Assembly: GCA_001599975.1 (NCBI GenBank)
Contig: BCIO01000006.1
Coordinates: 553,587-617,586, forward strand
Length of the DNA stretch: 64,000 nucleotides
DNA from: Cystobasidiopsis lactophilus
Lineage: Eukaryota; Basidiomycota; Agaricostilbomycetes; Agaricostilbales; Chionosphaeraceae
Direction of reading: 5' to 3'
In this document: piece by piece, positions 883-63,657 of the stretch
Layout: each line of letters opens with the position of its first letter
How positions within the stretch are numbered: the stretch's first letter is position 1
Made by a program: the position numbers and the translations under genes
The notes under the pieces: generated by a model
Database searches by the model: none
Seen by the model: only the letters and a program-made list of their open reading frames with translations
What the model was told of the DNA's origin: nothing

Positions 883-2535
883 CTAAGGCCATGTCGACCG
901 CGCCAGATCGAATCGGCACGGCACATGGGGACATGGCCAGCCCATCTTCTTGAAAACGGCCTCTCTTCGGGTCCACAGATTCGCCACGTAACTTTGAAAG
1001 CTGGCGGACGCGTTGGTTGCCAAGTCACAGCTCGTTCCATGGTCGGTTTCGTGATAGAAACTTAGCGCGGTGATGTTGTCCTGCAAAAACTTTGCCTCAA
1101 ATCCGCGATACCAGACCTCGCCGTAACTGCAGTGACAAAACCAACGTGAGCTCTTTCGAATAGCTTGAAGCTTCAGAACGCACTGTACCGACGCCGTTTC
1201 AAGACCATCAACCCGGTGCGTGCACTTGTTGTTCCATTCTCCCGCGTTGCGCTTGTGCGTAAAGTATGCAAGCTCGGAAAGTGGACTATTTGCAACGGTC
1301 GGTTTGACCAAGTGCGAAAGATCCATCGGAGGGCCGCATTTGTAGCCCTTTTGAAAGCACAAGCTGCCATAGGAGCTAGAAGCGAATTGGGCGTAGAAAC
1401 GTGGAATGGCGGTGGCGAGGTCGGCAACATCTTCTGGGAACGGTTCCGGAAGGAACATTTCGTCGATGTCCATAAATGCCACCCAGCGGCTCGGATATGG
1501 GTATGCTGAACGGTGCTTGCAGTGCAAGAGATAAAGCACCTAAAGCCGCTCTCAGCAGGTGTTGGTGGCCTCGTTCAAGACAAGCGTACCTGGTCTGCAT
1601 ATAGGCCGGAGTGCTCCATACTGGTGCGATGGCCATACGTTTCGGGACTCAGAGGTGGTGCGTAGGTGAAGGTGTCGTGAGCCCCGGTCGCCTTTGTGTA
1701 CATCTTGACGAAGTCGCGGACACTTGCATCGCGTCCATACCAATGAACGGTCTTGACACCGAGTTCTAAATGATGGTGCCGCCAATCCAACAATCGCCGG
1801 GCTTCTGGGTGGCCATAGATCGGGCTGATGCAAATAGCGAGCTGCGAACAGGTAAGCAACGTGCATATACGACAGGCATGAGATCCGCACCTCTGTTGGA
1901 GCAGTCGGTGCTTTTTCAACCAATGAAGTCGAGAAATCAAAAGTAGTTGTTGTCCCCTTGAGGTGAAGTCGCAGGTCGACTCGTAAAGTGCCGAGTGCGA
2001 GCTCGCGAGGAATGGGACAGTTGATGAGGAGAGCCCATCCAAGAGTAGGTGGCAGTACCGCTTGTGTGCGATAGCTTTCGTGACCTATCGACAGGTTGCA
2101 CTCCACGGCCTCAACGTAGGAGTAGTCGGCCAGGCGAATCTGCCAATCCGGGGTGCCCCCTGGCCGAGGGAATTCTACCGCGAACCATCAGCAATGGACA
2201 CTACTCCGAGACTCCACACACTGACTCTCCAGAAAACTCAGAATGGAGACATAAGAGTCATAGTCGCTGTTGGCGTCCCGATATGTCTCATTTTGCAGGC
2301 GCATGGTAGCACTGAGGAATGTGAATCTGACTTTGTCGTATGGAACCGGTAAATTTGATTGCCAGGGCGAGTCAAAGGACATTAGGACTGGCGGCGGGCC
2401 TCTTGACCAGATCGGAAACGAGCTGGCGCGTTGGCGAAAGAACAGAAGAAGACAGCTGGCGCCAAGTAAGCAGGTAAAAGCGAGGAGTCGCGCTCCACCC
2501 ATTTGCCGATACGAGAAACGCAGCTGAGGCAACAT
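883..2535 (-). CDS. GT92 (DUF23)-like glycosyltransferase, type II membrane protein
   Basis: Spliced by hand into four exons (2535-2226, 2174-1891, 1841-1590, 1539-883; introns 51, 49 and 50 nt), all in frame, giving about 500 residues. The start ATG is followed by a basic stretch and one membrane segment (residues about 16-33, LLAFTCLLGASCLLLFF), the topology of a Golgi enzyme. The middle carries ISPIYGHPE then LLDWRHHHLELGVKTVHWYG, and MDIDEMFLP supplies the metal-binding DxD of GT-A folds, the pattern of GT92/DUF23 proteins. In animals GT92 enzymes add beta-1,4-galactose, in C. elegans onto core fucose; donor and acceptor here are unknown. Divergent from the SGNH gene at 2865. Family call is firm at fold level, less so at subfamily level. 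Confidence 0.8.
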
Positions 2536-2864
2536 GACGGGGAGAGCAAATGAAGGAGGAAATCCTCAGCAAAACGCGCTTGGACAGCCCCCCCCCTTGT
2601 ACCCCCTTGTACCCCCCTTCCCCTTCAGGTTTCACCACCACCCACCACTTTTTTCCCTGCCCAGCTGCACCAATTCCCGTTTGTGACACCTGTCTCTTTG
2701 ACGACCTAGTTTGCTTTTGTGGATGCTCTGTCGCTCTAGGGAGTGCGGCCAGACCGCGTGAAACCTTCCTGCGTGCACAGTGACCTTCCTTATTATTTCG
2801 ACTTGATTCTGTTGTGATCTCCTCTCCTTCTGGCGGACCGCACCTTGATCTGTTCGATGCATTC
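2536..2864. promoter_or_regulatory. Divergent promoter between GT92-like and SGNH genes
   Basis: About 330 bases separate the two start codons, so both genes must be driven from here. The interval is pyrimidine-rich on the plus strand and holds four C-tracts (listed separately). No TATA box is convincing. Confidence 0.5.
2588..2623. repeat. Four C-tracts (G-quadruplex/i-motif candidate)
   Basis: C-runs of 9, 5, 6 and 4 bases at 2588-2596, 2602-2606, 2612-2617 and 2620-2623. The first two gaps are the same 5-base spacer TTGTA and the last is TT, so the tract also looks like an imperfect CCCCCTTGTA tandem repeat. The minus strand fits the usual G-quadruplex pattern. It sits about 53 bases upstream of the GT92-like start codon. 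Confidence 0.65.
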
Positions 2865-4397
2865 ATGGGGCTTAACGACTTTGACGACTCTGCACGCCAA
2901 AATGCGCCCCCCTCTTTGACGGCCACGCCCTTACACTCTAGCTCCTTTTCTTCGAGTAGTCACGCTTACACCCCGGGTCGAGCTTGCGCGCTATTCGTAC
3001 TGCTAACATGCATGATGACCGGTGTACGCTTTTTGAATGGCCGTCAGGTCAGCGGATTGCCGTGCGGTGCTCGTCTCTTCAACTGGACAAGGCTGACGCC
3101 TCCACCGTGCAGGTTGGCTTGCAAAGACCCCTACAAGGAGCCCGGATTTATATGGCGTGTCAGTTCTTACACCTGAGCCGGGGTGCCATCCGTCTTATTT
3201 GGTCTCGCAAAAAATCGAGCAGGGTCCCAACATTGACGACATTCGATGGATCCCGTTTGAATCTAGCACAGAGGGCGACAGTCGGTGAGGACTTCTACTC
3301 CACAAGTCCACCGAGCGCAACCTGAAGGGTCGACTTTTAGCATGAGCATTGCTGATGTGGTGAGTTACAAAATAGTCGCAACGGCATAGCTCCTTAAGTA
3401 CCTTTGAGAAAGAGCACCGACATGCCAACGGCTACCGCCGCCGAACATGCGTCGCCTCCTTTTATGCGCCATTTGATGCAAGCGATGGACCGAGATCCTA
3501 GCGGTGGCAGTCTCGCGAACGATCCCGCCTGGATGTGGGCCAGGGGGCGAGCCGTCGTATTCGTCGGCGACAGTCACGATCGAAACAATGTGGAACAACT
3601 ATGCCAGCTAGCAAGAGGAAGTCGATATCAAAGCAGCGGCTTCCACATTGGCGGCATGTGTACCGTCCCGGGGTTGGACTTGAAGATAATCAGTTTATTT
3701 CACGTTGGTTTGGCGGAAGCATCGGAATCATGGTATGGAGACGCCATGAAGGAGCTGCCATGGACGGTGGAGGATCGGTGGCGCGTCATCTTCGAACGGC
3801 TGTTGCAGGATTATGGGGCCTCCACGCCGGACTTGGTGGTCTTGAACAGTGTTTGTTGCGCTACTCTCCTTGCCACAACGACCTGATGAATCGTCTGCAG
3901 GGCTACTGGGACATGCGATACCTTTTGATGAGAACACACGACGAAGGCACTGGCCGCCCCTTCACTTGGGACGAGATGCGCTGGTACCGCAGCCGGCTTC
4001 ACGACTTCGTTCGTCTGGCACAAGAAAAGACTTCAGGCGCGCCGATCATGTACCGGCTTATTCAGCAAAGTCGAACTAACGCAAACAGCACAAATGTCCA
4101 AGTCTTTCAACTCAATGAAAGCGCCAAGTTTGTCATGCGCCAGCTGAAGCTACCTACATTTGACTGGGCGAAGCTGATTCGGTAAGTCGTTGCGGTCCGC
4201 CTCGCAAAGAAGCAACACTGACCTTGCTTGCCAGGGGTGATGGCGAATATTCGGATGGGCAGCAGCACTTCTCCCTTGGCCACACGTCCTACCTATTTTC
4301 GCAAATGGCTCTACACTACCTCTTCCGCGCTGTCCATGGACGCAGTTGCCGACACCTAGAAACAGCGCTCGACTTCATCCTCCGCCTTATTGTCTAG
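2865..4397 (+). CDS. Membrane-anchored SGNH-type protein (GDS-x-DR family, copy 1)
   Basis: From the ATG at 2865 a Ser-rich cytosolic tail leads to a membrane segment (ALFVLLTCMMTGVRFL). The luminal part has GPNIDDIRWIPFE, the block I motif VVFVGDSHDRNNVEQLC (nucleophile serine in GDS), then LVVLNSGYWDMRY. Introns supported by frame: 3285-3340, 3360-3412, 3851-3900 and one ending just before GDGEYSDGQQH at the 3' end; exon 3341-3359 is only 19 nt. The first luminal exons (about 3030-3180) could not be resolved. Same family as the gene at 62075. Block V here reads SDGQQH rather than the D-x-x-H of the sister copy. SGNH proteins of this kind are acyl esterases or O-acyltransferases; the substrate is presumably a glycan, which is inference. 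Confidence 0.75.
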
Positions 4398-4577
4398 TTC
4401 GGCAATTAGACACTTGAGGGGCATTTGGGGGTGCTTCCGGCACAAGATTGGAGTCGTCTTTTATTGTGCATTACGAATACCCCAATTCGCGGGTCCGAGG
4501 ACGGCAATGCCGGAGCGAGCGCAGGTTTGCTCCCCGTGCGCTTCAACATTGCTGCATCGGTTGCCGCGCTGCGCTCT

Positions 4578-6340: not shown

Positions 6341-6365
6341 AAATACATTTTGAGCATGCCTTTTG

Positions 6366-13829: not shown

Positions 13830-14459
13830 CGATGGGCTTCGGCCTGGCGGTCACCACCGCCGTCTTGATGCACACCACCACCCGATTCGAAGCTCCCTCT
13901 CCGTTCCCCTGGCTTGCGGTAGCTCCACGACCACAAACCCTCTTTTGCTTCATATTACTTGACTGCTCGAGAGCAAAGCCTCTCGACCGTCTCGAGACGG
14001 ACGGGCTCGATCAAGGGCTCCCCGGAGGACGACTCGAGGCACACGCGCAGCGAATTATGCAAATGCCCTCGGCTTGCTGGTCGACCCTGATGTTGCTCCT
14101 GGACCTTGAGACGCTTGTTTGCTCTTGTGACCCGAAACGACCCGAATTGCCCTTACAGATTAGATGCGCGGCCCGAGGATAGAGGCCTCGATCCAGCGCG
14201 AGTTTGGCCCAGGAACAAACGCAAGGGCCATGTTTCGTGTTTTATCGCGTCCCCTGGTCCTACATTAAAACAAGCAGTCAGGAAGAACACAGTCAGGAAG
14301 CGAATGATGTTACTTTCTTCGTCCAACTATCCAACAGAATTGGCGGCTCTGTGCACTCCTCCGACCGAGCGCTCCCGCTTGCTCCTCCTCAACATTCGCC
14401 CTTCCGCATCTCGAGGGAGAAGGAAAAGGCTGCTGCGGCCGAACCAACTTTTCCACACA
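13830..14459. promoter_or_regulatory. Divergent promoter, TAO3 / GT92-like gene
   Basis: 630 bases between the two chosen start codons. An open frame on the plus strand runs from 14106 into the GT92-like gene, so its start could lie further upstream (ATGs at 14304 and 14307). I see no clear box elements. Confidence 0.4.
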
Positions 14460-16290
14460 ATGTTCAGCCGGCTCATGTCAAAGTCGCCAGCCTTGTCGCT
14501 TGACAGCCCATCACAGGCGCCCGCCGCGACTAAGTTGACCTGGCTTTGCGTCTTTGTGTCCATTGTCATCACGGCCCAGCTATTCATCATCCAGCCCTCT
14601 CTCGGCTCCGACCTCTTCGCCCTCTCCAGCCTTAGCTCGCAGCGCTATGACCGAGACCCTCTTCAGGATGCTCCTACCATCACACCAGAGGCGCACAATC
14701 TAGCAGACCTGGCAAGGGCGTCTCCAATACCAACAGCTCCTTACAAGTTGGCCCTCTGCTCGCTGGCTAGGAACGAGGGCGCCTATTTGGAGGAGTGGAT
14801 CATTTACCATTATTTGATGGGTGTGTTCGCTCCCTCCTTTCTTGGCGTGGCTGCAAGCTCAATGAGACCGCGGACAGGCTTTGACCACTTCGTCATCCAA
14901 GACCACGGAAGCACTGACAACACGAGAGAGGTTTTGGCGCCCTACGTTGAAGCTGGCCTCGTCACCATCCAGCCGGTCCCGGAGCACCTCAGTCTCCTCG
15001 AAGTAGAGCACGAAATGCATATTAGCTGCCTGAACGGCTCGGCAGTTGACACTGACGTAAGCCTAGCTCTTCCTCCCCTGACTTGCCCGCCTAACTCGAG
15101 CGCAGTGGGTGGCGACTTTTGATGTTGATGAGATGTAAGTTGGTGGATGACGCCATGACTCTTCTTTGAATCCAGTCTGAGGCCCAAATTCAGGCTCATC
15201 ACGACCTTCATGCCGAAAGCCGACATCTTCCGGCCAACAGCGCTTCAGAAATGGTTTCAAGATCGAGCGGATGCGCACCAGTCTTTAGTCCAAGTGCTTC
15301 GCTGGTCTTTCCTGCTCAATGGGCGCCAAGACGCCCCAGTGGCCCCCTTTGGAGCTGCAGACTGGTTCACCGAGCGCCGAGTCGAAGGGTCAGCAGCGGT
15401 GTCCTCTCGTTCTGAAGCGCCGAGATCTGAATATTCTGTACCGACAGTGGACCGACTATTGGCGGGGGAAAGATCCTGGCCAAGCTTGGCACATTCGATC
15501 TGAACGGCGTCCCATGGGTGCACCACTGGCTGGAACCAACCGAGGGATGGTGAGATTTCGTCTGCTGCTGTGCTCCTGATGTTGGCTGACATCTTGCCTG
15601 AAGGAACCGGATCTTGACCAACATGTGCGTTTGTCGGCATTTGCTTCACAAGGCTTGCATGCTAAGGGACCGAGTCCAGGGCCCCGTCTCTCGACTTATA
15701 CGCAAACCCGCCAGTCATGGAGCCGCTGCGCCTCGCACACTTTGAAACCCGGTCTTACAACGAGTGCAAGTCGAAGTGCGAAGATCCTAACCAACGAGGC
15801 ACCTGGCGGTACAACGCCACCGTCGAAGTCTGCGACTCGAAGGTTCCCGGCGGAAAGTATTACTGTTCGCACCTCTCACTGCACTCGCTGCATTCTCTGC
15901 TCATTCTGATTTCCATAGACACTGACTGGGTCACCCAAGAATACACTTTACGAGAGTCGGTCTACAACCAAGCAACCAAATTGATCCGCAGCCAAGGAGG
16001 GCTTTTCACGAAAGTAAGCCAGCACAGTCATCTTCATGGCCAGGAACAAGCCTCACTGTGCGCCTCTCAATCAGAACTAGATCCACGTACGATACCTGCC
16101 GCCAGTAATGCACTGGTCCGGGGGCATAGGATTTGCCACACGACTTCACACTATTGTAACACTACCACACTGTTTCGATTCGGATGCAATGCCCTGGGCA
16201 GGATTGCAGTCTATCAAACGTACAGCTGAGCAATGGTGGGCCAACGAGGACCCAGGAGTTGTGAGCAGGCTTCATTCGGCCGCGGAATGA
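14460..16290 (+). CDS. GT92 (DUF23)-like glycosyltransferase, second copy
   Basis: Ten exons (14460-14820, 14878-15056, 15106-15134, 15176-15388, 15448-15549, 15604-15624, 15680-15864, 15919-16013, 16081-16290; nine joined boundaries all keep frame) give 464 codons. Counted this way the gene has nine exons, two of them only 29 and 21 nt. A short N-tail precedes a membrane segment (LTWLCVFVSIVITAQLFII). Then ARNEGAYLEEWIIYHYLMG and FVIQDHGSTDNT mark the nucleotide-sugar half, and WVATFDVDEI, encoded by the 29-nt exon, carries the DxD. Later LAHFETRSYNECK resembles the C-terminal block of GT92 proteins. Acceptor and donor sugars are unknown. The ATG at 14460 was chosen for its distance to the membrane segment; earlier in-frame ATGs exist. 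Confidence 0.8.
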
Positions 16291-27653: not shown

Positions 27654-29328
27654 ATGGCTCGACACAATTCCCAGGCAGCGCTTTACAGCAGGCGGTTCAA
27701 GCGCTCCCCCGTCGTTGCCATCACCGCTCTGTGCGTCGCCGGCTGGATCCTCGTAGGGCTGTACTCTGGTCGTCAAAGGGCATGGACTTCCGATCGACCT
27801 TGCCGTTCGTTCGAGGATGTCGCTGTTGGCAGTTGGATTCCACGGCCGGAACCTTTCTCAATCTTCAATGAGGTCAAGGGCAGCTACCGCGATGACCCAG
27901 ACCTCCTGGAGTGCTACAGCGAAACCGACAATAAGGCATTGACCAAAGAACGCCTGGTGCAGGTGCGGCCAATCCCTTGTGTGCCACACTGCTCTTCTTG
28001 TGCGATTTGAACTCTCGCTCCCAGGTATCAAGCTATCTGTGGCAGCCCGCATCCTGCTCGATCAAGGCTTTCGACGTCGAAAAGTTTCTGTTGGCGGCAC
28101 TCGCTATGCCCGAGGGTATCCTTTTGATTGGCGACAGTCTTGCTGGCCAATTCTACGCAGCTGCAGGGGCATTTATTGGCGTCGGCCCCCGATTTTGGCT
28201 GGTGGAAAAAGCACCAGCTGGGTCAAGGATGCGGTGAGCTTTTACGATGATAGGGCATTGGCCACCACTTCAGATTTCTAAGGCCTATTTTGCTTTGATA
28301 GATTTCCGCGGACGTCTTCCTACTTCATCAATCCCCACCACCCGTTCCACGCCTCCGTGATTCGACAAGGCTTGCACTCCGCTGAACGCCTGGGCCGTCC
28401 TGTTCTCACTCGGTTCACGTCCTATCACTTGCTGCCTGACCATCTTTTGAACGACTATTTGCCCGACTCTGGCGATCCAGACTTGCCCGTGCGCCGCGAC
28501 CCAGAGCGCTACGCCGGCAGCGATCCGAAGTAGGCCCTCGCTCTCTATTCCACCTGGCCAGTGAGACGGTCTGACGCCTCTCATTTTTTAGCTGGATTCC
28601 CGAACTGAGACGAATTTTGAAGCACTACAGCTCTTTGCCCGTGGAAAGGCCGGTGGTCGACACACTCGTTGTCTTGAATTCGGGCGCCCATTGGAACAGC
28701 CTCAAATTCGTCAACCTGCCCGAAGAAAGGATGGAACTGCTCAAGGACAGCTATGCAGCTGTCGTGGAACATGTAACATCAGCAATGCGCCAGCTGCCTT
28801 ACAGTCAACACTTGCGGATCGTCTATAGGACCAGGCACGCTTGTCTCTCCAGCGGCTTCGTGATGCTTTGGTTAATCCACTTCCCAGTCCGTTTGTCCAC
28901 AAAGAGCACTGCAGCCTGTACGCAGAGCCTTTGAGGTCGTCGACACCTCTGAACTTTACCAGCCACTTCTATCAGGTGCGTCAGATTGCCTCCTGCTAGA
29001 ATTGCCACTCAAAGGATCCGAAAAGAGGCTCTATCCTGCGCTGGATCAAGTGTGGACCAAGGTGACGAGGTCGCCCTGCCGGTCTTTTCACAGTGGCTCA
29101 GATCTGCCGGCCATCTGCAGCTCATCCCACCGGTCGAAGTCTGGAACATCTCCTTCGCTTCCGGGCTACGCCCTGACGCGAGAAGAAACCCGTGGGCGGC
29201 GGACTGGTGAGGTACTCCTCGTCGCAATCGCATGAGACTGGCTAATGCCATCCCGCAGCTTGCACCTCTGCCTGCCAACGGTGTTCGAGCTGTGGCGCGC
29301 TCTCAACCACTTGATGACCCAAGACTAA
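27654..29328 (+). CDS. PC-esterase (PMR5/TBL-like) membrane protein, copy 1
   Basis: Type II topology: basic tail, then VVAITALCVAGWILVGLY. The luminal region has the TBL-type N-domain pattern (W-x-P-x-S-C around SYLWQPASCSIKAF) leading to block I ILLIGDSLAGQFYA with the nucleophile serine. LVVLNSGAHWNS follows, and the C-terminus ends AADCLHLCLPTVFELW, the Asp/His block (D-C-x-H). Plant TBL and fungal Cas1p-like relatives transfer or remove O-acetyl groups on polysaccharides. Frame-supported introns: 27963-28023, one ending near 28301, one at about 28533-28590, and one ending at 29256. The exon order between 28830 and 29090 is unresolved. Convergent with the GT92-like gene at 29502. The same C-terminal block occurs in the gene at 52250. 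Confidence 0.8.
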
Positions 29329-29501: not shown

Positions 29502-30959
29502 TTACAGTGCTATAGGCGTGGCATACTGCGAGGCGATGCTGATCCACTCCGTTTCCTGCTTCTCCGCCCTGAGATTCTGCAGCTCTTGCGTCGCCTTTAC
29601 CCCTACCGCGGCGTAGAAAGATTGCTGCCACCTAGTGTCGACGGCAAACCAGCGCCTGTCTGGCCGAAACTTCTTGTCCAAGAATGATTCTCCTTCCCTG
29701 CACCAGCTGATCCCCGCCTTAGCACGCCATGAGTCGGGGCAGCATTTCTCCCTGACCCGGAATTTATCCTCGCAGTCATGCAGGTCGCGTTGGAGATAGT
29801 GCGCTATTGTCAACTGACCAGACGCAATGTGGTCGGAAATCCCGGGATACATTTGGGTGTAGCCAGGAACTTCGGTGTGCGGCTCCATCAAGCGGCTCGA
29901 GATAGGCTGCCCAGAGGTATCGACCACAACGGCTTTAGGTTTGAGCAGCATTTCGTGCGCCGCAAAAGGTGCAGATGGCGGATGCTCGCTCCGGTTTGTC
30001 GCTGAGAAAGACTGGCAACGATTGTTCACTTGGCTGCCGATCGCTTTCCAAAAGATGCTCACTTTGGTATACCACTCCGTTCGTGAAAACGACACTTCAT
30101 CTGGCAGACTCTTCAGCGTTTGCAGCTGGACCAAGAGGCTGGCGGGTTCCAAGCGTTGGACGCCGAAATTGATGAAGTTTGCGCGATTGACTACAACTGC
30201 ATCGGCTCCTGCCTTCAGTTGATATTGAGAAAGGATTTCGTGCATCGGAAATGACCAGACAGAGTCGGTTTCGCTGAACAGTGGGAATGTAACGTTGGAC
30301 GTGGTGGCGTTCGGTTCGACAAAGACGAACTCGTCGACATCAAAATGAGCCAGCCAGTCGACATCTTTAGAATAGGACTCTCGGCAGTGTCGTAGAGCCG
30401 TCATTTGGAATAGTGACGGGTCGCCTTTGAAATCATTAGCCGACAACGCGGTTGGCTGCTTCAAACGAGTGTGCTCACCCATGTGTAGGTCGTGCATCTT
30501 GACAAGGCGACTCTCAGCGAATGGCGCCAGCGCCAGAAGATCGTCGTCCCCGGGATTGATGAGATAAATGTAAAACTCGTTGAATCCCGCCATCCAGTGC
30601 CATAGCAAGAACTCTTGCATCCACCGCGCTTCATGCGTCGCAACGACACAAATGCCGACTTTCAAATGCGCAGGCAATCGGAAGCTCCCTGCGCGTACGA
30701 GGCTGAGCAGCCTTCGCTCTGAGTCTAAAGCCAGCAGTTTTTGCTCGGCGCTTAGATTGCTGACATGGAAGTCGTGCGGGACGGCAAACGAGAGCCACTT
30801 AGAGCTGCAACGCACGCGCAATGCATTAGAAGCTGCACGAATCAGCGAAAGAAACGCGCTCAACTCGGCTCCATAGGTCATCTTCAAAAGCGCGACGACG
30901 CAGAGTCCAATTGAGATACAGAGGGCGCGCACGACGCGTTGCCGAGCCCAACCCTTCAT
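29502..30959 (-). CDS. GT92 (DUF23)-like glycosyltransferase, third copy, intronless
   Basis: A single uninterrupted frame of 485 codons, unlike the heavily split relatives. The ATG at 30959 was chosen because it precedes a short basic tail and the membrane segment VVRALCISIGLCVVALL; the open frame runs further upstream without a better start. GICVVATHEARWMQEFLLWH and FNEFYIYLINPGDDD form the nucleotide-sugar binding half, and WLAHFDVDEFVFVEP has the DxD. IAHYLQRDLHDCEDKF near the C-terminus resembles the closing block of GT92 proteins, and several Cys may form disulphides. It is only distantly similar to the copies at 883 and 14460, so these are not recent duplicates. Donor and acceptor unknown. 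Confidence 0.82.
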   Translation of the reverse strand: MKGWARQRVVRALCISIGLCVVALLKMTYGAELSAFLSLIRAASNALRVRCSSKWLSFAVPHDFHVSNLSAEQKLLALDSERRLLSLVRAGSFRLPAHLKVGICVVATHEARWMQEFLLWHWMAGFNEFYIYLINPGDDDLLALAPFAESRLVKMHDLHMGEHTRLKQPTALSANDFKGDPSLFQMTALRHCRESYSKDVDWLAHFDVDEFVFVEPNATTSNVTFPLFSETDSVWSFPMHEILSQYQLKAGADAVVVNRANFINFGVQRLEPASLLVQLQTLKSLPDEVSFSRTEWYTKVSIFWKAIGSQVNNRCQSFSATNRSEHPPSAPFAAHEMLLKPKAVVVDTSGQPISSRLMEPHTEVPGYTQMYPGISDHIASGQLTIAHYLQRDLHDCEDKFRVREKCCPDSWRAKAGISWCREGESFLDKKFRPDRRWFAVDTRWQQSFYAAVGVKATQELQNLRAEKQETEWISIASQYATPIAL

Positions 30960-31687
30960 ATTAATGATGATGGATCCAAATGGATGGCTCAGGAGGAACA
31001 CCAGGAATGAAGAAGAGAGCGACCGGTCGACGCCAAGACAAGGGAATTGCGAAAATCGGTTTTTGCGCAGGGGCCGGCTGCAGGAGCCGGAGCAACTCCG
31101 AGCACCTGAAGAATAGATACTAACGTGCAATTGCGTGCAAGGCTTGAGATAGACACGAAAAGATACAAGGTGGCTCATGGATCATTTCTGGCTTGCCTTC
31201 AAGTTCTTCAACTATATCATGCGCGCCACCGAGAACGGCCCTCAGAACTGGTCTGGAAAGGAGTCCGCATGCATGCTGACAGTCACCTCTACGTTTTCAG
31301 GCATTCGATGGTCGAAAGCCAAGGGATGGCTTGTGTTCGTATGAGCTCCGGGGGGCCCAGAAGAGCGATGGCACGAGGACGCACTCGAAAACGTTGGGTC
31401 CTCGGCCTTCGCGAGCCATATCCGGGTCTTGAAGGTTACACGCCTTGCCGTTCTTGATCTAATCGCCGCACGCACTCGACATTAGCAAACTGGCAGCTGG
31501 AATCGGCCTGAGGAGGGCACCAACGCACCATGAGGACGGTGAGCGCGCTCTGATCTTGGCGGTGGTTCTGTTTGTTTCGCAGACGCAATCAGAGCTTGCT
31601 TGCCCTCGGAGGACGGGGCAGGCTCCCACCTCCACGCTAGGCCCTTCTGGTGCGATGCAACTTTTTTTCCAGGGCACACGACCGCCA
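30960..31687. other. Intergenic stretch upstream of GT92-like copy 3
   Basis: About 730 bases between two minus-strand genes. Short open frames only; the first part is open in the GT92 frame. It likely contains the promoter of the GT92-like gene and the 3' UTR of the DUF1647-like gene. Confidence 0.4.
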
Positions 31688-33223: not shown

Positions 33224-33489
33224 ATAACGACGAGACGCAGAATTCGCAGCTTAGCTCTTCGATGTCGGCGCGTCGTGCCGGCCCACCAAAGGCGACTGCG
33301 GCTCGAAGTACCCGTCTCTCTTCTCCGCGACATCAATTTCAATGTGTAAACTTTGAGAGAGATTCATGACGACCCACTTGGAAGAACATGGTGCGCTAAG
33401 GTCGAGAGTCACTCTTCGGGACATCCTGAAAGCCGTTGAGAACTCGTGATTTTGGCTCTTTTCTTGCCGCGTCCATCACATCCAGCGCG
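33224..33489. promoter_or_regulatory. Short divergent promoter, DUF1647-like / O-fucosyltransferase-like
   Basis: At most 266 bases separate the two coding regions, so both are likely controlled together. Part of it may be the first exon of the minus-strand gene. No individual box is convincing. Confidence 0.4.
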
Positions 33490-35149
33490 ATGGCCTTTAG
33501 GGATTCAGAAAAAGGAGACCCTGATTCGACGCCGTCCTCGAGCCCACAAATCTCCCTGCCGTTTCGAGGTCCAGGACGAGACTTTGCGCATCCAAGGCCG
33601 ACCACGACAGACAGCGCAGTCACTCTGAAACGCGTCGGTCTCGTAGCCTTGAGCCTCTTCGTTCTCTTTCTGTGCTGGAAAGCAATCCCCGTTGGACGCG
33701 AATTGCCTTCGCAATCTCGACTTTCCCTCAATCTGCCTCCTTCCGCGCCGGCAACCTCGTATTGGGACGGCCTGCTTTCGCAAGAGCACTATGTCACAAT
33801 ACTAGGGAACCAGCCGTATGCAGGAATGAGTACGTCAGCCTTCCTCGGGGCAGAGCTTTTGCTCAAGCGCTTTCCGTGCGCAGCGAACCAACTTTGGGGA
33901 ATTTTCAATCTCGTCAACTTGGCTAAGATGTCAGAGCGTATTGCCATACTGTCAGTCGATCCAGTTGCTAGGTCATTGTGGCCACCTAATCGTTAGGGAC
34001 AGTCCCAACTTTTACGCCACGCACGGCGAGGGAGAACCCGCGCTGGTCGGGCGGTACTTCAATTTGGACCGGTTTTCGACAGAGGCAAATGTTCAAGTCG
34101 TTGAGTGGCAAAACGTCAAACCGGTGTCATTGGGTTCTGTTCAACTGGAACCGATCTCGTGCTACAACAAGCAATGGCAGCCCGCTCCGACCCAATTGCC
34201 CCGCTTTGGGCTACAACAGGAGGTCCAACCACTGCCTCAAGAGATTTCGTGGACGTGGCAGGGCTTGCTGGAGTTGGCGGCTTTGGAAAAGCATCGCTAC
34301 AGGCAAAGTCGTAACACCAGGAGTGATTTACTGTGCCTAGGTGCGTTGTCTTGTTTGAAAGCGCCTTTGCCTTGATTGACGCTTGGATCGCGGTACCAGG
34401 AAACGAGCTGTTCTCCATGCCTTCAGTATCCGCCGACGCCGCAATTGGGGACTTTCTTCCGCAGGACCCTGTTGTCCAAACGATCTTACCTCGCTTTCAC
34501 TTTTCACATCTTGTGGACTCTGCGGCTTCGCAAATACGCAAAACACTGCTTGGTCCACTCGCGAACCGACCTTACATTGGCGTTCACATCCGCCGCGGCG
34601 ACTTCAGCGAATGGGGTCTGATCCATGCCAACGATGTCAGCGGTTTTCAACAAGCCGTTGACGAGGTTCAGAACGCTTTGTTGCTTCAACATGGGCAAGC
34701 CTACGCCGATTTGCCGGTTCTGGTTGCTACGGACAGCAGCGAAGACCACATTCTTCAGGCTATAGATCGAGCCGGCTGGTCTCTGCTCGATCACGCCCAA
34801 CTGAACACAGCAGAGCTCTACAGCGACTTGTGGATGTCATCTAGTAGGCCAAATGATCGATGCACTGTGTGTTTGACCTCACGCGACAATACCAGTTGTC
34901 GATTCAGCTCTCCTGGGCGGAGCGGCCGGCTTTGTTGGGTAACTGAACTTTGATTGTCTTCAACCATCGCTCTATTCTGATTTCTTCTCTGGCGCAGGAC
35001 GGACCGGAGCACTTTCACCCATCTCGCTGCGCGCCGAGTGGAAGCCTGGCAAAACGGGCCAACGCGGATTGTCAAGGGATGAGGAGCTTTGGGCATCGGC
35101 TTGCGATCATATCATTATTCTGTTCGTGCTGAGAATGCCCCACTTGTAA
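33490..35149 (+). CDS. O-fucosyltransferase-like protein, type II membrane
   Basis: The ATG at 33490 starts a tail of about 45 residues, then a membrane helix (VGLVALSLFVLFLCWKAI). The first luminal exon contains NQPYAGMSTSAFLGAELLL. The signature is PYIGVHIRRGDFSEWG, the HxRRGDF motif that binds GDP-fucose in O-FucT (PF10250) proteins, followed by LPVLVATDSSEDHILQAI. The last exon ends CDHIIILFVLRMPHL. Several introns are needed; those around 33955-34010, 34340 and 34800-35000 are not fixed. Fits the GDP-fucose transporter-like gene at 54322. Protein O-fucosylation or polysaccharide fucosylation are both possible. Ends 84 bases before the ATM1 start on the same strand. Confidence 0.75.
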
Positions 35150-47478: not shown

Positions 47479-49927
47479 CTATGCAGAGTTCTCCACTCTG
47501 CCTTCGCGCAACACGCTCGCCCACTCCACTAGCATCCGATAAACGTACACCTGCGCCTTGATGTCAGGTCTCTGCGGGGCACTTTTGCCAGACCAGGCGA
47601 TAAGAATGGGTTGCTCACCTCCATGTCCTCCTTCCGCAGATGCCGTCGCTTCCACCTCGAGCCTGCCATGGCGATATCCTTCAAAGCCTGGTCCCCGTTC
47701 AAAGTCGATCCGATGTCTGCCAATGGGTCGATCGCGGCCGTAGGGCCCTTCTCGGGCGTCACGATGACCATCTGCCCTCGCCCTTCGAGGGTAGCCCGCC
47801 GGACCAGGTTGGAATCGCTGAGGTCGGGGTGATCGATTTTGATAGGTTCTGGCTCTGCGACCAAGTCTTTGGAGAAGCCAGAGAAGAAGGCTTGGATGTT
47901 GTGGAGCTCTAGGTAGGTCGTGGACAAAGGAATGAAGTGATACCTGGAAGCAACGCAGAGTTGCCGGCAGGTTCAGCATATAGTGCAAAGGTGTGCGAGG
48001 CCGTAGAAGAGAAGGCTCACCAAGGCACGATCCAGTCGTTCCAGAACTCGCGCTGGATGGTCGACTTGATCACCGCGCAGCGGCTCTCCATGAGCGCCAT
48101 GAACTTGGGGCTCAGACCCACTTCGTCCAGGTCGACCAAGTACTTGTGCTTCCACGCTTGGCTGAGCGGCCTGGGCGGCGTGACCCTGAAACCCTGCTCC
48201 TTGATGTAGGCGCATTCGCCCAGGCGCGGGTCGCAAGCCAGAGCAACGTCGGTGGTGAGCTCGTTCAGGCGCCCAACTGGTACGGAGAGGGAGGTGAGGG
48301 CCGAGGTGGAGGTGTTGAGGGAGATGATGCTGCGGATGGTTTGCTCGGCCTGGGCAGGGTCGGCGGCGCGTTCGAACTCTTCTTCCTCGTCGAACAGCTC
48401 GCCTGGGACCTGCAGGCCGTTATCGTTGGCCCAGGCGACGAAGCGCTGCTTTTGGAAGTGAGCCTGGTGCGCAAAAGGCACGTCGGCGCCTTTTGTGACC
48501 TTGCCGCGCCAGAAGACCAAGTCATCCTTCTCCGCCCAGTCTATGTCGGCGGTGGTTTTGGCGCGACCTTGCTTCAGCTCCCAGTCGTAGCTGAACTCGG
48601 AAGAGGGGTTCCAATACTGGTGGGAGGGGATGAGCAGGTCGGCAAAGCCATTGGGCTTGGAGGGCGAGAAGAGGGGGTAGAGGTGGGGGATGGAGCGCGT
48701 GTTGGTGAAGAATGCAGAGTGGAAGGCGTGCAAAGAGGGGGAATTGCAAATGTTGGTATAAGCGTCCGTGTTGGCGACGAAGGTCATCTCGTTGCGCGGC
48801 GGGATGACCCCATTGGCGGCGGTCCGCCGTCTAGATAAGACCGAACCATGTTTGTACTGCTTCTCTTTGTTGGAAGACACTTTTGGGCGCCAGCCAGGCA
48901 GCTTGATGGAGGCCAAGCGCTGTTGGCGGACGTGGTCGTCGGTCTCTGCCGAACGCACTGACTCGTGCAAGCGGCGGGCGGCCGAGTCGGGTGGGCAGGA
49001 CCGACGAAAGGTTTCCCAGGTGGAGCCAAACTCGGAGCCGTCGAGTTGCCACTCTGGAGGAAAGGGTAGCATCGAGGCCAGTGGGTCCGTCTTGTCTGTG
49101 GCGTGGTGTCAGCTCGCAGGGTTAGACACGTAGCAAAGGATTGAGAACGCACTCTCGGCAGTGGTAGGGTCCTCGTCCTCCCACTCCTGCACCTCGACGG
49201 TCCGCCGCGCCTCAGGCAACACGCGGCCCTCCAAGCGCTCGTTGATGGCAATGTCCATGTCCGGCAGGTCCTTGACAAAGGCTGCGATCATCTCTTGGAA
49301 AGCCAAGGCTGGCGCCCACCGCCCGCTCTTGGAGTGGATCTCGCTCTTGCCGTTCCTGATGCTCACAATGGACACGCCGGCGAGCGAGCCGAGCGTGGCC
49401 GTCCTGGCCTTGATGGCGGCGGGAGAGAGCGCGTAGAAGGGCTTGAGGTCGGCCATGAGCGAATCGTACTCGTCCACCAGGGTGTGGTTGCGCGACTGGG
49501 CGAAGGCGAACCATTCTGAGAAGCCAGTGGGCGGGACCTTGCCATAGCGGAGCCTGTACTGGGCGGTGGCTTTTGACAGAGACTTGCTCTGGGAGTTGAT
49601 GAGGCGGGTGTGCGACTGGCGGCCGTAGATGAGCAGGGTGAGGATGGGGTGGACCTCGGCGACCCTGGCGACGGAAGCGGAGGCTGGGGCGACGTACGAG
49701 ACGAGGTGGGTGATCAGGTCCTCGTCCGCGCTGGAGCGCCAGGCCTTTGAGAAGAGGAAGGCGATGAAGAGGAGGATGGCGCCGTAGAGGACTTTGAGCG
49801 AAGTGGGCCGCGTGCGAGCTGTCACTTCGCTGCTCCTCCGGCGTGGCCTGGGCGGCGAGCTGCTGCCTAGGAGGGGCGACGGCGCGATGTCGACCGCCTC
49901 AAACTGGTCTGACTTCTCATAGCCCAT
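47479..49927 (-). CDS. GT90 (CAP10-like) glycosyltransferase
   Basis: Type II Golgi enzyme: tail of about 48 residues, membrane helix VLYGAILLFIAFLFSKAW, then a stem. The catalytic region (two long exons) shows LVFWRGKVTKGADVPF and FQKQRFVAWAND, the W-x-G-K-x-T/K and R-x-R-F-like blocks of GT90, then KYLVDLDEVGLSPKFMALM, SCAVIKS-like and EFWNDWIVPWYHFIPL, the closing GT90 motif. Introns near 49090-49150 and 47940-48020, and one at about 47570-47620 ending before AQVYVYRMLVEWASV. In Cryptococcus CAP10 is needed for capsule, and other GT90 members are xylosyl- or xylosylphosphotransferases; which applies here cannot be told. Convergent with LYC1, divergent from the leucine-rich gene. Confidence 0.88.
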
Positions 49928-53903: not shown

Positions 53904-54321
53904 CTAGCCCGGGCCGAGCGCAGCTTTACTCATTGTATTGCGGGTTGCCCATTGATAGCATTCGTGTCATTTATGAGCAAGTCGAACAAAACGCGTCCGC
54001 TTCGCCAGTGTTTGGCTTTGCTGCTCTTTTCGACTACGGGGAGCACCCAGCGTTCAACATTGTCGAGTCGATGAAGGCGATCGAGGCACGGCCCAACCTA
54101 ACGGCTGAGGACAGCCTGGTTGAGGCTTCAAGTTCGGCGCGCGCTTCTTGCGTTCCTGCTCTCCATCAGCCATCTCGCCTTATCTTTCTGGTTCTTCTTG
54201 CATCAGCGCGAAGCCAGTCTTCTAAATCTGTTTACTGTCTTTACTGTCCTATCCCTTCAGCCTTTGGGTCGCGTCGAACTTGAAGACCAAAACAATCCAA
54301 ACACCCATTCATTTATTTTCA

Positions 54322-55899
54322 ATGTCGCGTCCTATGCAGTCTTACGCGGCCTCTGACAATGCAAGAGGCCAATACTCCGACCTGGGTGACGGTGAACGCT
54401 CTCCGCCGCCCTACTCGAGCCCGATAGCCAGCGAAAAGGCCCTGGGGGCCCAAGCGCAGGCTGCAACCGAGCCCAAGCCCACCAGTCGCGTCGCTGTGTT
54501 CGCTTCCGTCTCGTTCTATTTGGTTGCTGCCCTCGTTGTGAGTGCAAAGGCGTCTAGTGCGTGGGGATCAAGCCCGATATTGACACAACTCCTTTCTACT
54601 CTCGTAGATGGTCATGGTCAACAGTAAGCGCTCGGCCAACCCCTCGACAATCAACTGCACACTGACCTTGTGGTGACTCACACTTGCAGAATGGGTGCTC
54701 AACGCGGTTCCCGTACCCTTGTTTTTCCTCTTGGTCCAGCTGCTCACCGCTGTTGCCTTGTTGTAAGCCCAAGACCATATCAAGCGTGTTACATCTTAAC
54801 CATGTCAATAGGCACATCACTGCGCTGTTTGGGTTCTTCAAGGTCCCCGAAATCCGAGTTTCGACCTGCCGAGGCCTGACGCCGCTGATCGCAATGAATT
54901 GCATCGGCCTCGCCTTCAACACATACTGCCTTCAATATGTCGACGCTTCATTCTATCAGGTAAATTTCGACTGTCGCGAGCCAAGTCCAGACCTTCGATT
55001 GACCGACGTGAGAAACCCAGGTCGCCCGTGGCTTGGTCCTCCCGTTCACGACCATCCTCAGCTACTTCTTCCTTGGCACCAGATCATCCATGTTGCTGCT
55101 CAGCGCCATTGGCATCGTCTGCTTGGGCTTCATGGTCGGCGTCGGCGGCGAGAACCTTTCGGTCTCTGGAATCGGCATCGTCCTTGGCGTGTGCTCCTCG
55201 GTGACCACTGCCGGGCACGCGATCGTTGTCAAACGCGCCCTCCCTGTCGTCAACGGCTCTACAATGGACCTGGCCTACTTTGCGAACTTTTTGTCGGCTT
55301 TCGTCATGGCCCCGGCGGCTGTGTTGGTGGAGGGCGGCGCCATCTTGCAGATGTTCGCTGATGGAGGCGAGCAATTCCGTACATTCTGGATCGGCGGTTT
55401 GGTCACTGTACGTTAACTCGATGGCAGGATGCCATGTCAAGCACTGAACAGCTACAAACAGGGTGTATTCGGCTTCCTGATCTGCGTTGCTGGTTTTATT
55501 TCCATCAAGGTCACTTCGCCGACTACGCACATGATCTCCGCTGCCGTGAGGGGTGTCATTCAGACCGCTTTGGGTGTCTGGCTCTTCGCTGACATTGTGA
55601 CTCGGTAAGTGCTCATCGCTTTGTCCGGGCATGTTTACGACTAATAAGGGCACTGCTTTAGCGGTCGGCTGTCGAGCATCGCTCTCATTCTCTCTGGCTC
55701 GATCCTCTACACCTACCTGAAGGACTTGGAGCTGCGCAAGAAGGAGGAAGCGCAGGCTGCCAACACCATCGCCCTGTCGAGCTCAAAGGGCGGCGAAGTC
55801 ATCTTTGACATGGACCGCGAGCGAGCTGAAGAAGAGCAGGTCTTGTTGGCCGCTGATGCGCTCATCGCTGAGCAGGACGCTAGAGCGTCCAAGCAATAG
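54322..55899 (+). CDS. GDP-fucose transporter-like nucleotide-sugar carrier (SLC35C type)
   Basis: Golgi or ER membrane antiporter of the drug/metabolite superfamily. After a Ser/Pro-rich N-tail of about 60 residues come ten likely helices. Characteristic points are VMVNKWVLNAVPVPLFF, AFNTYCLQYVDASFYQVARG, FTTILSYFFLG, VVKRALPVVNGSTMDLAYF, GFISIKVTSPTTHMIS and GSILYTYLKDLELRKKEE. The NGS-x-x-x-L and K-x-TSP-x-TH blocks align with animal SLC35C1 (GDP-fucose) better than with triose-phosphate or UDP-sugar carriers; substrate is inference. Introns lie near 54540-54607, 54626-54691, 54765-54812, 54960-55025, 55408-55461 and 55604-55660. The supply of GDP-fucose in the Golgi would serve the O-fucosyltransferase-like gene at 33490. 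Confidence 0.82.
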
Positions 55900-57309: not shown

Positions 57310-58745
57310 TTAGCGCGCATCAAGGCAGACAAGAAAGATTACTTGCTGGGTGGCTGAAGTGGTCACGGTCTTGTACAAGGTGTCCATGAAAGCAAGAGGC
57401 TCCTGCCATCTCCGAGCCTTCCTTGCCTCCATCCAAGCTATCTCTTGGTCCGTTCTGGTGTGAGGACGGCGGGTGTTGGACGATGGTAAAGCTCGCCATG
57501 GGACGGGCAAAAAGCCCACTGTCCAGTTGTACTGATGATAGGCCCGAGTCGCCAGATCCTGATCAAAACCGCAGCAGTAAGAGAGAGTGTCCGGGGCAGC
57601 ACCAATTCCACTTGCATGGTCATCGTCGCCCAGGTAAAAGTGTTCTTCGTCAAAATACTGAAGCTGCCGCACCATCCAACCTCGGTACAGGATCGGGCCT
57701 CTGTTGGCAGTGTCTCGAATGAAGAAAGTACAGGCATCGTAGTCTTGCGTCGGCAAAGGGGGGCATATGCCGGCTCCTTCGAAGGCGTTGTTCAGTGGGA
57801 GCGAGTGCGCGCATTTCGTTGTAGTCGCCAGGACACCTTCCCACACTCGGAGTGGGGCGGCCATGAGAGAGTTCCACCCGCGAGTCGTGGGAACGACATC
57901 GTCTTGGATGAACAGAATGTATTCCCCTTGGCTCAAGCGCGCACCCTTCGTGCCAAATTCGTCAGGTCTTCACCTGAGTATGGTCGCAACCCACGCACCA
58001 AATTGTTCGCACTGGTCTCAAAGATGGCAGTAGCTTGGGCTATCAGCAACACCTTCAGCAGCCGAGTGCCGTCTGCTGCAGAAATGAAGTCGCGGACTGC
58101 GGCACTGGCGACCTCGATCGAGTTATCTGAGCATTGATCGAAGACGACAATGAGCTCGTAAGACTCCGTAGTATGCTGAAAGATATGCTGGAGGGTTTCT
58201 GCCACGGTCTCCTACAAATCTTTGATGTTGAGGGCGATCTGATTTTAAGCCCGGAGCAGACTTACTGCCATGTCGTGGACTGTCAACACAATCGAGAACA
58301 CTGGCACTTCTTCTAATTCTGTCTGCACCTCGAGCACCTTGCAAGGCTCGGCCTGCGTGCCCTCAACAGCGGGATCCGGCGGGGTGTGTAGCTGGAGGAA
58401 AGTGGAGCTGGGCAGTCGACAGGCTTGGGCGCCACCAGCCGGCAACAGATCACTTGTGCACGCACAGGGCCCTGGTCGAAGGACTTGCAGAGCGCTTGTC
58501 CGCGATCGACTCGAGACGCGTTCGACAGCCCAGTTTTTTGTTGGCCATACGACGAGGAGAGCCACAAAACAAAGCAGGCTAGCAGCGCGTAGTCGAGACC
58601 ATCTAGTGAGGCTCGTGTGGTGGGCCGCAGTTGGGGAGTCACTGGAAGGCAGCTGGGAAGAGCGTCCACTTGAGCACACGCGCTTACAGGCCAGACTCGA
58701 GCTTTTGCTGCTCACCACTTGATAAGACCCTGCCGTGGTGCCCAT
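57310..58745 (-). CDS. GT2-family glycosyltransferase, type II membrane protein
   Basis: ATG at 58745, Ser-rich cytosolic tail, membrane helix AASLLCFVALLVVW. The GT-A core begins VFSIVLTVHDM, and after an intron TLQHIFQHTTESYELIVVFDQCSDNS gives the classical GT2 nucleotide-sugar fold. LSQGEYILFIQDDVVPT supplies the metal-binding QDD, and FYLGDDDHASG a second acidic cluster. It ends VIFLVCLDAR; the last residues may change if a further intron is used. Introns: about 58270-58207 and 57990-57935 in minus orientation. Donor and acceptor unknown. The prolonged stem with Cys suggests a Golgi luminal enzyme. Confidence 0.8.
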
Positions 58746-59015
58746 TGTCGGTTCGATGACAAATCAAATAACAATAGATCCAGTGCAGAAGCTAGCGAAG
58801 GCGGCTGCCGGCCCTTAGGATTTCGAAGTCGGTCGTCCGCGCGAAAGAGGTCGGACCCGAACGCGAGGAGGTTACTCTCCCCTTAAGTCGACCATTGGCT
58901 CTGGTATGGATAGTGGTCATTATAAACACTGCTACTCCCTGGCTCCGTCCTAAGGCTAATATACAACAACCCAGGACAATCTGTAGAGCGAGCGACGCAA
59001 CCGCGCCCCGTACCT

Positions 59016-61279: not shown

Positions 61280-62074
61280 CGCGGGTGTGCTCCAACTTGC
61301 TTGAAAGGGGTGCGCCCGAGCCAGTCAACTTGGCTTTGGGTCTTGACTCGACCAGTGGCAAGCCGTTGCCGTCTATCGATCAATTGCGTCCCGCGGTAAA
61401 GCGACTTGTTATTTGCTGGACACACTTAAAGGCAAGCTCAAGGCTGTTGCAACCAGAGCTAGGGAAGAACAACGAGGGTGGCGGAGGCATCTCGCCGAAC
61501 GCCATCCACAAGACATCTCTGTTGCCACCTGGTCCCGTCTCCTTTCCTTTTCTTTGGCTGCGTCCACTACAATGACTGAAACTGCTCTCTGTGCCACGAG
61601 CTGAACTGAAACGATTTTGAACAGCCAATAACGCGGCTATCAGGTCAGGACGAGAGCATGCGCGCCAATTTGCCAATCGAGTTGGCCAATAAATCAGCCC
61701 GAATTCCTTCGGCAAGCACCGCCGTTCCAACGGTTTCCGTCGAGAAGTAGAACAAAGGCATGGCTAGTACACGAGCTGGCAGCTGTCACCATTCCATGGC
61801 GCCGCCACTTTGGAAAGGCGCGTCTGGAACCTTGTTGAAAGATGGGTCAAAGCCAAATGCAGAAAAAGGCGATCTTTCCCGAACATTGCTCTCGCTCTCT
61901 CCCAACTACTCTCCATAGCTAGTCGTCCCTATCACTGCTTCAGACTGTCGGTCCGAGCTGCTTTCTGATTCGAACCGGGCTTCGCTCGCAAACAAAAGGG
62001 CTTGCCCATCTGCAAGTGCCCCTGGCGATCTTTGAACGAGGCTGGCGGCTTTTCTTCAACCGCCTGCCGCTAAC
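61280..62074. promoter_or_regulatory. Divergent promoter with four CCAAT boxes, GTPBP1-like / SGNH
   Basis: 795 bases between start codons. CCAAT pentamers in the same orientation occur at 61625-61629, 61665-61669, 61673-61677 and 61686-61690, four in 66 bases. CCAAT is the site of the HAP/NF-Y complex in fungi. No coding-like frame. Confidence 0.5.
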
Positions 62075-63657
62075 ATGCCAAATTCAACATATCAAGCTCT
62101 GCCAACGGACGCGGAAAAGGTGGACTCGGAGCGGCGGCTCTCAGTAGGGTCGATTGCGCTCAAGTCGCCTTTGATCAAAAGTGCTGCCGCCCTCCTCGCT
62201 TGCTGTGGCCTCGTGTACTTCTTTCTCCAGTTCAATGACTTTGACGCCATCCACGCCCTGCCACCGCCGACACCAGCGCTGGAATCAATACCCATCCTCG
62301 TCAATCCTTACGCCTGCCCTGGTCGCATGGCCGAACAGTCGCACGGCAACATGGCATGGAAACCATTCAACGGAGCCGAGCCGGTCGACTATGTGGCGCT
62401 CTTACAATCAAAACACATCGACGACCACCTGCAGTTCTTGCGCAACAAGACTGTCCTGTTCGTCGGCGACAGCATCGATCGCTACAACATTCAAACCCTG
62501 TGCGACAACCTGGGCGAGGAGAGGTCGAACCCGCCAGAGTTCTCGCATCTGTGGGACGAGTATCCGGAGAAGGTGTGTCACGTCGCAATTTTGTCGCATT
62601 TTTGGCAGGGACTGACCATCGCGCTTAGGGGTGCTACGTCGAGAAGCTCGATTTGTTGTTCACGTTGGTCTCGTCCTTCTGCTTTTCCTGACCCGGCTCA
62701 AATTTGGCGTACCAGCAACATTTTTCTATTCGGCAACACCGGGGATGATTCGTGCGGTCTGCTTCCGTCCGGCCTTCGGATCGATGACTAAAATTGACTT
62801 GGCTACAGTTTCTTCCACCACAAGAGTCTGACGGAGGCGCCGTTCGTGACCGAGGAGCGACTCCAAAAGCACGCCCCGCGGATCGCTCAGCTCGGACGCG
62901 TGCCCGACTTTATTCTCCTCAACTCTGGGTGGGCTTTCTCCCTTCACCCCCTTTTTCGTGTACGACAAATCTGATTGCCTGGCCGCAACACAGCGTCTGG
63001 GACATGTGCGCCTTCAACTTCCAGGATGCCCAGCACTGGCTGGAGCCCTCGCAAGAGCTGCCGGACTACCAGCTGGAGATGTACCGCGAGGGGCTCAACC
63101 ACATGATTGACTTAATCGACCAGTGGTGGCCGAGCGCGACCAAAGTGTGGCGCCACACGACCTACCCCAGGCCTGATACCACGAACAATTGGTGGTCCGA
63201 CCGTGAGCCCTTCTGCCTCACTTTCATCTCCTTTTCCAAGAACTGATAAACGACGAAAAAGGTGTGGCCAACGTATCGGACATAGAGCGCACCCAGTATG
63301 CGATCGTCAAGACGGCGCAGACGATCGAGGTGGCGGAGGACGTGATGGCGCTGCGCCAGATCCCGGTGGCCGACTTTGCGCGCATCACGATGGGTCAGTA
63401 TTCGATGAACTTCATCGACGACCTGCACCCGAACCCGCAGCTGCGCTATGCGCTGCTCAACTATGCCCTTTTCCAGTTTGCCAAGTGAGCTTCTTCACTT
63501 TTATGCACTTTGTACACGCAGGTCTTATTGGATTACTCCTGATTACAGCTTGGCTCCACTGACATGCACGTCTGAACCAGCTGCACCTCCCGCGCCATCG
63601 AAAGGATGGCCGCACTCTGAGTGGCTGCTTGGACAGCGACCGTCTCACCCCAAGTAA
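62075..63657 (+). CDS. Membrane-anchored SGNH-type protein (GDS-x-DR family, copy 2)
   Basis: ATG at 62075, cytosolic tail of about 35 residues, membrane helix AAALLACCGLVYFFLQF. The luminal domain has YACPGRMAEQSHGNMAWKPF, block I KTVLFVGDSIDRYNIQTLC with the nucleophile Ser, PDFILLNSG followed by WDMCAFNFQDAQHW, then RHTTYPRPDTTNN and the block V MNFIDDLHPNPQLRYAL with a full D-x-x-H. The last exon after a 64-nt intron encodes a Pro/Ser-rich tail. Introns begin at 62573, 62674 and about 62928, 63203 and 63487. Shared block order with the gene at 2865 shows a common family. Acyl transfer or hydrolysis on a secretory glycan is the likely role; substrate unknown. Confidence 0.82.

Follow-up and report, generated by a model that had tools for sequence, protein, structure and literature searches.

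A 64,000-nt stretch of contig BCIO01000006.1 (C6) of the basidiomycete Cystobasidiopsis lactophilus, referred to here as the window, carries together with the DNA to its left a large group of genes for glycan synthesis. Our analysis indicates that C6:492.8–617.2 kb, equivalent to window positions −60.8 to +63.6 kb, is probably a single cluster of ~124 kb for a polysaccharide of the capsule, slime or outer wall that is fucosylated and O-acylated; judged from sequence, a surface polysaccharide of mannan/galactan type is the best reading of its product. Both the clustering of glycan genes at the locus and the predicted conversion of GDP-mannose to GDP-L-fucose by enzymes encoded within it are well supported. 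The extent of ~124 kb follows from a dense block to the left of the window and a loose one inside it, the window genes representing a looser right flank with housekeeping genes in between. A preliminary description of the window had proposed a dispersed neighbourhood for a fucose-bearing, O-acylated surface glycan. That proposal picked up a true signal and the right sugar, seen from the thin end of the locus.

Genes were predicted in the window (C6:553587–617586; the genome comprises 22.1 Mb in 8 contigs, and adding 553586 to a window position gives the C6 position) and in neighbouring stretches using a purpose-written, splice-aware gene finder trained on 264 kb of the same genome. Negative coordinates denote window numbering to the left of base 1. 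Predicted introns are short and frequent (median 58 bases), and the GC content of the genome is ~0.55. Along with the presence of GT92 genes, these features would fit Pucciniomycotina (Microbotryomycetes or their kin), and a Tremellomycete was judged less likely on account of GT92. Cluster models of at least 60 amino acids were classed by Pfam matches up to E 0.05, blastp, matches to solved structures and reading. All genome-wide family counts are lower bounds: the six-frame exon searches overlooked some cluster genes (O-FucT, GT90). The structure listings give molecule names only, and the species to which we assign solved relatives (human, plant, poplar) are those we presume. To the right of the window, 40 kb were gene-predicted and read by eye, with only a GDP-mannose pyrophosphorylase run against Pfam.

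The genes that would supply fucose lie just to the left of the window, where we find the only GDP-mannose 4,6-dehydratase (GMD), the only GDP-L-fucose synthase and the only GT10 gene detected in the genome, in agreement with the sugar that had been proposed. GMD (−8784..−6755) matches PF16363 over its full length (1–332 of 332, E 8e-157) and the solved GMD 6gpk, which we take to be the human enzyme (E 1e-161), and carries the YxxxK motif as YGVAK. GDP-L-fucose synthase (about −13415..−12005) matches 4b8w, presumably its human counterpart (E 5e-116), and was read by eye from start to stop across its introns in genomic DNA. The two genes are ~3 kb apart, 6.8–13.4 kb left of the window, with a DUF1647-like gene between them (−11710..−9193; E 2e-4, below cut-off; 30% identical to the DUF1647 protein of the window). 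No second copy of either was found in genome searches, in which other PF16363 matches reached at most 53 bits. GT10 (about −16179..−15270; domain E 4.7e-20; both exon matches in the genome belong to it) follows ~2 kb beyond GDP-L-fucose synthase, separated from it by a GT25 gene (−14852..−13551, E 5e-7). Its domain and FENTN...DYVTEK motif are present. For three single-copy fucose genes to lie within 10 kb of one another, a rough, after-the-fact estimate of the chance is ~1e-6.

We determined the density of glycan genes in both halves of the locus and compared it with 130 kb of control DNA from five other places in the genome. The left block contains 29 models of at least 60 amino acids between −60765 and −647, corresponding to 27 genes after merging two split ones (GT90 and GDP-fucose synthase); 24 of these 27 are glycan genes, some of them classed from fragments or from similarity alone. 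The window contains 25 such models including two plain fusions (ATM1 with ALG8, SGNH with SLC35), giving ~27 genes, close to the ~28 counted previously. Twelve of the ~27 are glycan-synthesis genes; ALG8 was considered as a member and left out as N-glycan housekeeping. The controls yielded 66 predicted genes of at least 80 amino acids, of which 64 were scanned and two had no usable exon; they were classed by blastp and by Pfam matches (E at most 0.001) of their two longest exons (113 exons in all), and hence by fewer means than the cluster genes. Among the Pfam families listed (19/19 and 25/27), the 64 control genes contain no glycosyltransferase, nucleotide-sugar enzyme or PC-esterase. They include one polysaccharide deacetylase and four AA14-type lytic polysaccharide monooxygenase exons (control genes on C3–C5). 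The gene L018 (from 2337), which blastp showed to be weakly related to the window SGNH-C genes, was counted as a control positive. The control stretch C3:1000000–1029999 (L018–L020) also carries DUF4246 genes in tandem.

Against the controls, Fisher's test gave p ~1e-17 when the left block was taken alone, ~6e-7 when the window was, and ~1e-15 with the two combined; these values are to be read as rough, as linked duplicates are not independent. The claim that glycan genes in the window are denser than expected by chance is therefore upheld, and equal density elsewhere, which had been named as the observation that would speak against it, was not seen in the control DNA. Linkage of unrelated pathway families exceeds background. 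Chance or artefact as the source of this density is rejected by the control genes and by the genome-wide family searches. All 15 SGNH-A matches reported lie within C6:522.6–606.5 kb, in both halves of the locus, and the only two DUF1647 matches fall one in each half; the presence of these two families on either side ties the halves together. The cluster, which holds five GT92 genes by model, accounts for three of four GT92 profile matches and two of three PC-Esterase matches.

The left block begins with a GT14 gene (−60765..−59133, E 1e-11), two GT64 genes (−56351..−53097, E 3e-11; −51817..−48283, E 1e-47) and a second TPT carrier (−47926..−46589, E 2e-28). It continues with a GT90 gene (−41628..−40931, front piece −39703..−39274, E 1e-10), two GT69/CAP59 genes (−36504..−35063, E 1e-66; −34597..−33180, E 2e-28) and a GT92 gene (−30095..−28511, E 6e-11), followed by a GT90-like gene recognised by similarity only, with no Pfam match (−27665..−25929). 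Beyond the fucose genes lie a GT2-GT4 two-domain protein (−6416..−2848) and a further GT92 gene (−2468..−1399, E 4e-14). Four SGNH-A genes, two of them fragments, are found between −31060 and −17268, and four SGNH-B genes, one model of which lacks the GGS block, between −43011 and −22268. Three models were not classed as glycan genes: a BNR_4 protein, a CPL1-like protein and an unplaced model of 91 amino acids. The BNR_4 repeat protein (E 1e-8) sits within the cluster at −58394 to −56542. A BIR1-like gene (Pfam BIR) and then an ABC transporter, the latter identified by reading, form the left border.

Within C6:522.6–536.3 kb (window −31.1k to −17.3k), SGNH-A copies that are near-identical (96% over 131 amino acids) stand beside broken ones, and one predicted GT92 model carries an SGNH-A tail at its end. 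This pattern hints at recent duplication and loss of genes there, perhaps with gene conversion as well.

In the window, gene models and Pfam confirm the three GT92 genes and the single DUF1647, O-FucT, GT90, GT2 and SLC35-type carrier genes named previously. The GT92 genes are located at 883..2304 (− strand; PF01697 E 1.6e-14, MDIDE motif), 14307..16080 (+ strand; GT92/GT2_4, PF13704 1.1e-15, PF01697 7.5e-15) and 29502..30881 (− strand; PF13704 6.9e-10, PF01697 6.8e-7). Next to the last of these are the DUF1647-family putative glycosyltransferase (31242..33367, − strand; PF07801 5.3e-9, DVD motif) and the O-FucT-family putative fucosyltransferase (~33480..35082, start approximate, + strand), which has a hydrophobic N-terminus, scores 38.4 bits against a cut-off of 31.5 for PF10250 (1.5e-9), carries the HxRRxD motif as HIRRGD and matches solved POFUT2 with E 1e-4. 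A GT90 (CAP10-like) gene (47479..49927, − strand; PF05686 4.1e-9) is 40–46% identical, over short stretches, to the upstream GT90 pieces. The SLC35/TPT nucleotide-sugar carrier (53950..55899, start approximate, + strand; PF03151 2.7e-19, GDP-mannose transporter in PDB E 2.8e-7) and a GT2 gene (57310..58745, − strand; PF00535 2e-7) complete the set apart from the SGNH genes.

Five SGNH/PC-esterase-type genes had been claimed; we find four, all on the + strand and all with the G-D-S block, one of which exceeds the PC-Esterase (PF13839) cut-off, one falls just under it and two are far under or match another family. They comprise (i) a gene at ~3400..4397, its exon read directly, with an FVGDSHDR block (GDSL E 0.011, below cut-off), which is of the type of the gene at 62075–63620 and 29% identical to it; (ii) an SGNH-A (PMR5/TBL-like) candidate O-acyltransferase with an N-terminal hydrophobic stretch (27654..29328; PF13839 E 0.003, below cut-off; 25–29% identity to upstream SGNH-A); (iii) an SGNH-A (PMR5/TBL-like) candidate (52301..~53900, end approximate; 27.9 bits versus cut-off 27), which the gene finder fused with the SLC35 gene; and (iv) the SGNH-C (PC-esterase-like) gene at the right-hand end of the cluster (62075..63620; E 7e-6, 26.6 bits versus cut-off 27).

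Housekeeping genes are interspersed with these, as the preliminary description had stated. Tyrosyl-tRNA synthetase, a TAO3-type gene, an ABC gene (ATM1), ALG8, an EF-Tu-type GTPase and a NUDIX gene exceed Pfam cut-offs; an amino-acid permease and a GNAT gene have matches below cut-offs; SCH9 and the SET and F-box-like genes, whose exons gave no Pfam match, were assigned solely by reading. Positions 20318–21805 encode a predicted protein of 423 amino acids that contains four hydrophobic stretches and matches nothing in Pfam, and RNA families and tRNAs gave no match within the window. To the right of 63.6 kb follow, by reading, a low-complexity protein and a formate-dehydrogenase-like protein, and then the GDP-mannose pyrophosphorylase (67378–69574) identified by Pfam. 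This supplier of the GDP-fucose precursor was not counted, being a housekeeping gene separated from the last cluster gene by nearly 4 kb.

The statement that the genes do not form a tight cluster holds for the window and fails for the locus, where almost nothing interrupts the left half. In an alternative reading, the left block alone, from −60.8 to +4.4 kb, is the cluster and the remaining glycan genes of the window are incidental neighbours. Rightward of 4.6 kb non-glycan genes predominate, with GT90, GT2 and the carrier among them, as such a limit would predict; glycan genes nevertheless still account for 10 of ~25 genes there, and the SGNH-A and DUF1647 matches of the whole genome are confined to the left block and the window. 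We consider the shorter cluster unlikely.

All five GT92 genes, three in the window and two upstream, exceed the PF01697 cut-off and carry the D-x-D-E motif, and a profile of their proteins matches galactan synthase 8d3t (E 1.9e-9) at low similarity; the Gal-Fuc linkage suggested earlier is conjectural. O-acylation, as earlier proposed, is borne out at the level of families only. The SGNH-A profile (A2) matches ESKIMO1 (E 5e-5) at low similarity, a protein we take to be a plant xylan O-acetyltransferase, and the SGNH-B profile matches the GDSL-like protein 6hfz (E 9e-29), which presumably acts on acetylated mannan. A fold prediction of one SGNH-B exon without alignment gave a mean predicted local distance difference test score of 35 and was disregarded. 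Of the glycan-gene models, thirteen carry a hydrophobic stretch in their first 45 residues, as in Golgi type II enzymes. The window carrier can be placed in the TPT family only: its PDB matches are GDP-mannose transporters of low similarity, and the FYNN and GALNK motifs, which we understand to be important in GDP-mannose transporters, are not kept in its alignment. This carrier has paralogues on two other contigs, with exon identities of up to 78% for C4 and 50–60% for C1.

From these assignments we propose the following route. GMD and GDP-L-fucose synthase, whose orthology is clear, would convert GDP-mannose to GDP-L-fucose in the cytosol, and one or two of the SLC35/TPT carriers would move nucleotide sugars into the Golgi. 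There, a mannose- and galactose-rich chain could be built and branched by the GT69/CAP59-type, GT90, GT64, GT25, GT14, GT2 and GT2-GT4 enzymes; the GT92 enzymes, to judge by their relatives, may add galactose, and the O-FucT-type enzyme, perhaps with GT10, may add fucose. Golgi SGNH proteins would O-acetylate the chain or trim its acetyl groups before the product is exported to form capsule, slime or outer wall.

The same Golgi enzymes and GDP-fucose might instead be used on secreted proteins, to elaborate their N- or O-glycans, and not for a free polysaccharide. In keeping with this, the solved structure closest to GT10 bears the name glycoprotein 3-alpha-L-fucosyltransferase A; POFUT2, the solved protein that the O-FucT gene weakly resembles, acts on protein; and ALG8 is found in the window. 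GT10 contains a stop, however, ALG8 is a lone housekeeping gene, and the CAP59/GT69, GT90, CPL1-like and GT64 genes with three sorts of SGNH gene resemble a polysaccharide set, so that we regard protein glycosylation as quite improbable. That there is no pathway at all, the region being a fast-evolving one in which wall-enzyme families duplicated in tandem and became linked by chance, would account for the tandems and fragments of SGNH-A, SGNH-B and GT64 and for an SGNH-B pair also on C1. It is very unlikely, however, given that the linked genes belong to over ten families with no relation to each other, that both enzymes of a single pathway are among them, and that the three single-copy fucose genes lie so close together (rough chance ~1e-6).

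Several observations weigh against a single functional polysaccharide cluster. Part of the density reflects local duplication, and the genes are for this reason not independent draws. GT10 has an in-frame TAG before the last quarter of the profile and its domain is thus interrupted; together with several fragmentary SGNH-A copies, this suggests that parts of the cluster may be decaying. Only two of seven CAP59-type loci and three of six SGNH-B loci in the genome lie in the cluster, as do none of the four O-FucT and none of the five GT90 matches, in searches that missed the O-FucT and GT90 genes of the cluster itself. GT10 may be dying, truncated yet useful, or misread, and the predicted O-FucT-type gene of the window could, with the O-FucT relatives on C2, supply fucosyl transfer. 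On C2 a tandem pair of O-FucT-family matches is located at 2674.5–2677.9 kb, away from the cluster. Two more SGNH-B genes lie in tandem at C1:4938.5–4941.9 kb, and an SGNH-B relative adjoins a CAP59-type gene at C3:3062–3064 kb; both pairs are possible satellite glycan loci.

Comparison with known systems shows partial likenesses. The locus shares the GT69/CAP59, GT90 (CAP10) and CPL1-like families with the capsule genes of Cryptococcus. Those are largely scattered, and their product is an O-acetylated glucuronoxylomannan that is not known to involve this fucose pathway; the scanned proteins of the present cluster gave no match to a UDP-glucuronate or UDP-xylose gene. With plants, the likeness is to TBL/PMR5 O-acetyltransferases (SGNH-A profile to ESKIMO1) and galactan synthases (GT92 profile to 8d3t), at low similarity and for predicted activities. 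A described fungal polysaccharide cluster is that for galactosaminogalactan in Aspergillus, with the five genes gtb3, agd3, ega3, sph3 and uge3 (PMC13202872). As far as the passages of that source go, it is alike in that, among polysaccharide genes, an enzyme of sugar-nucleotide supply adjoins one that edits acetyl groups (PMC13202872), and it differs in size, with five genes against ~36 over 124 kb here, in its sugar, and in pairing a membrane polymerase with extracellular remodelling enzymes in place of Golgi-type glycosyltransferases and SGNH enzymes.

Fucose itself has precedents in related yeasts. Passages on Microbotryum lychnidis-dioicae report fucose in the wall, one candidate fucosyltransferase and five GT92 genes, a family that, within that genome comparison, is shared with Mixia osmundae and Sporobolomyces roseus alone (PMC4469406). 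The passages on Microbotryum and Rhodotorula report no linked gene set or GDP-fucose genes, and the terms 'GDP', 'GT92' and 'physical cluster' are absent from the main text of PMC4469406. A red-yeast slime contains Fuc 1.9, Man 27.6, Glc 17.6 and Gal 52.9, with fucose terminal, according to the part of the study consulted (PMC7760879); these sugars, from another species, would fit the proposed enzyme set. A further Rhodotorula slime with fucose is described as containing rhamnose too (PMC8419279, in part), and R. graminis is described as encapsulated, with CAP59- and CAP10-like genes (PMC4585186, in part). The slime of R. toruloides is mainly glucose, plus galactose and mannose, in a composition passage without fucose, and candidate glycosyltransferases and carriers were gathered there by keyword and blast (PMC12628781). 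Fucose is accordingly not universal in these yeasts. The suggestion that such a glycan had not been described in fungi does not hold for fucose, already published in these sources for the walls of Microbotryum and the slime of Rhodotorula. What may be new is the cluster rather than the sugar, and no fungal cluster of this kind was found in the open-licence literature, most subscription papers lying outside the search.

More tentatively, and short of what we would call likely, the locus may correspond, in a eukaryote, to the capsule loci of bacteria, in that ~124 kb hold a whole route from sugar-nucleotide synthesis through carriers to about ten glycosyltransferase families and three sorts of SGNH gene, with copies born and lost like antigen-diversity genes. 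We found no genetics of the assembly of fucose-bearing walls or slime in basidiomycete yeasts in the open-licence literature, and a single locus with GMD, GDP-L-fucose synthase and about three dozen candidates makes this assembly genetically tractable. The locus also provides candidate fungal GT92 galactosyltransferases and candidate Golgi O-acyltransferases. If the cluster is what we propose, large fungal pathway clusters would reach beyond secondary metabolites to complex, capsule-like polysaccharides.

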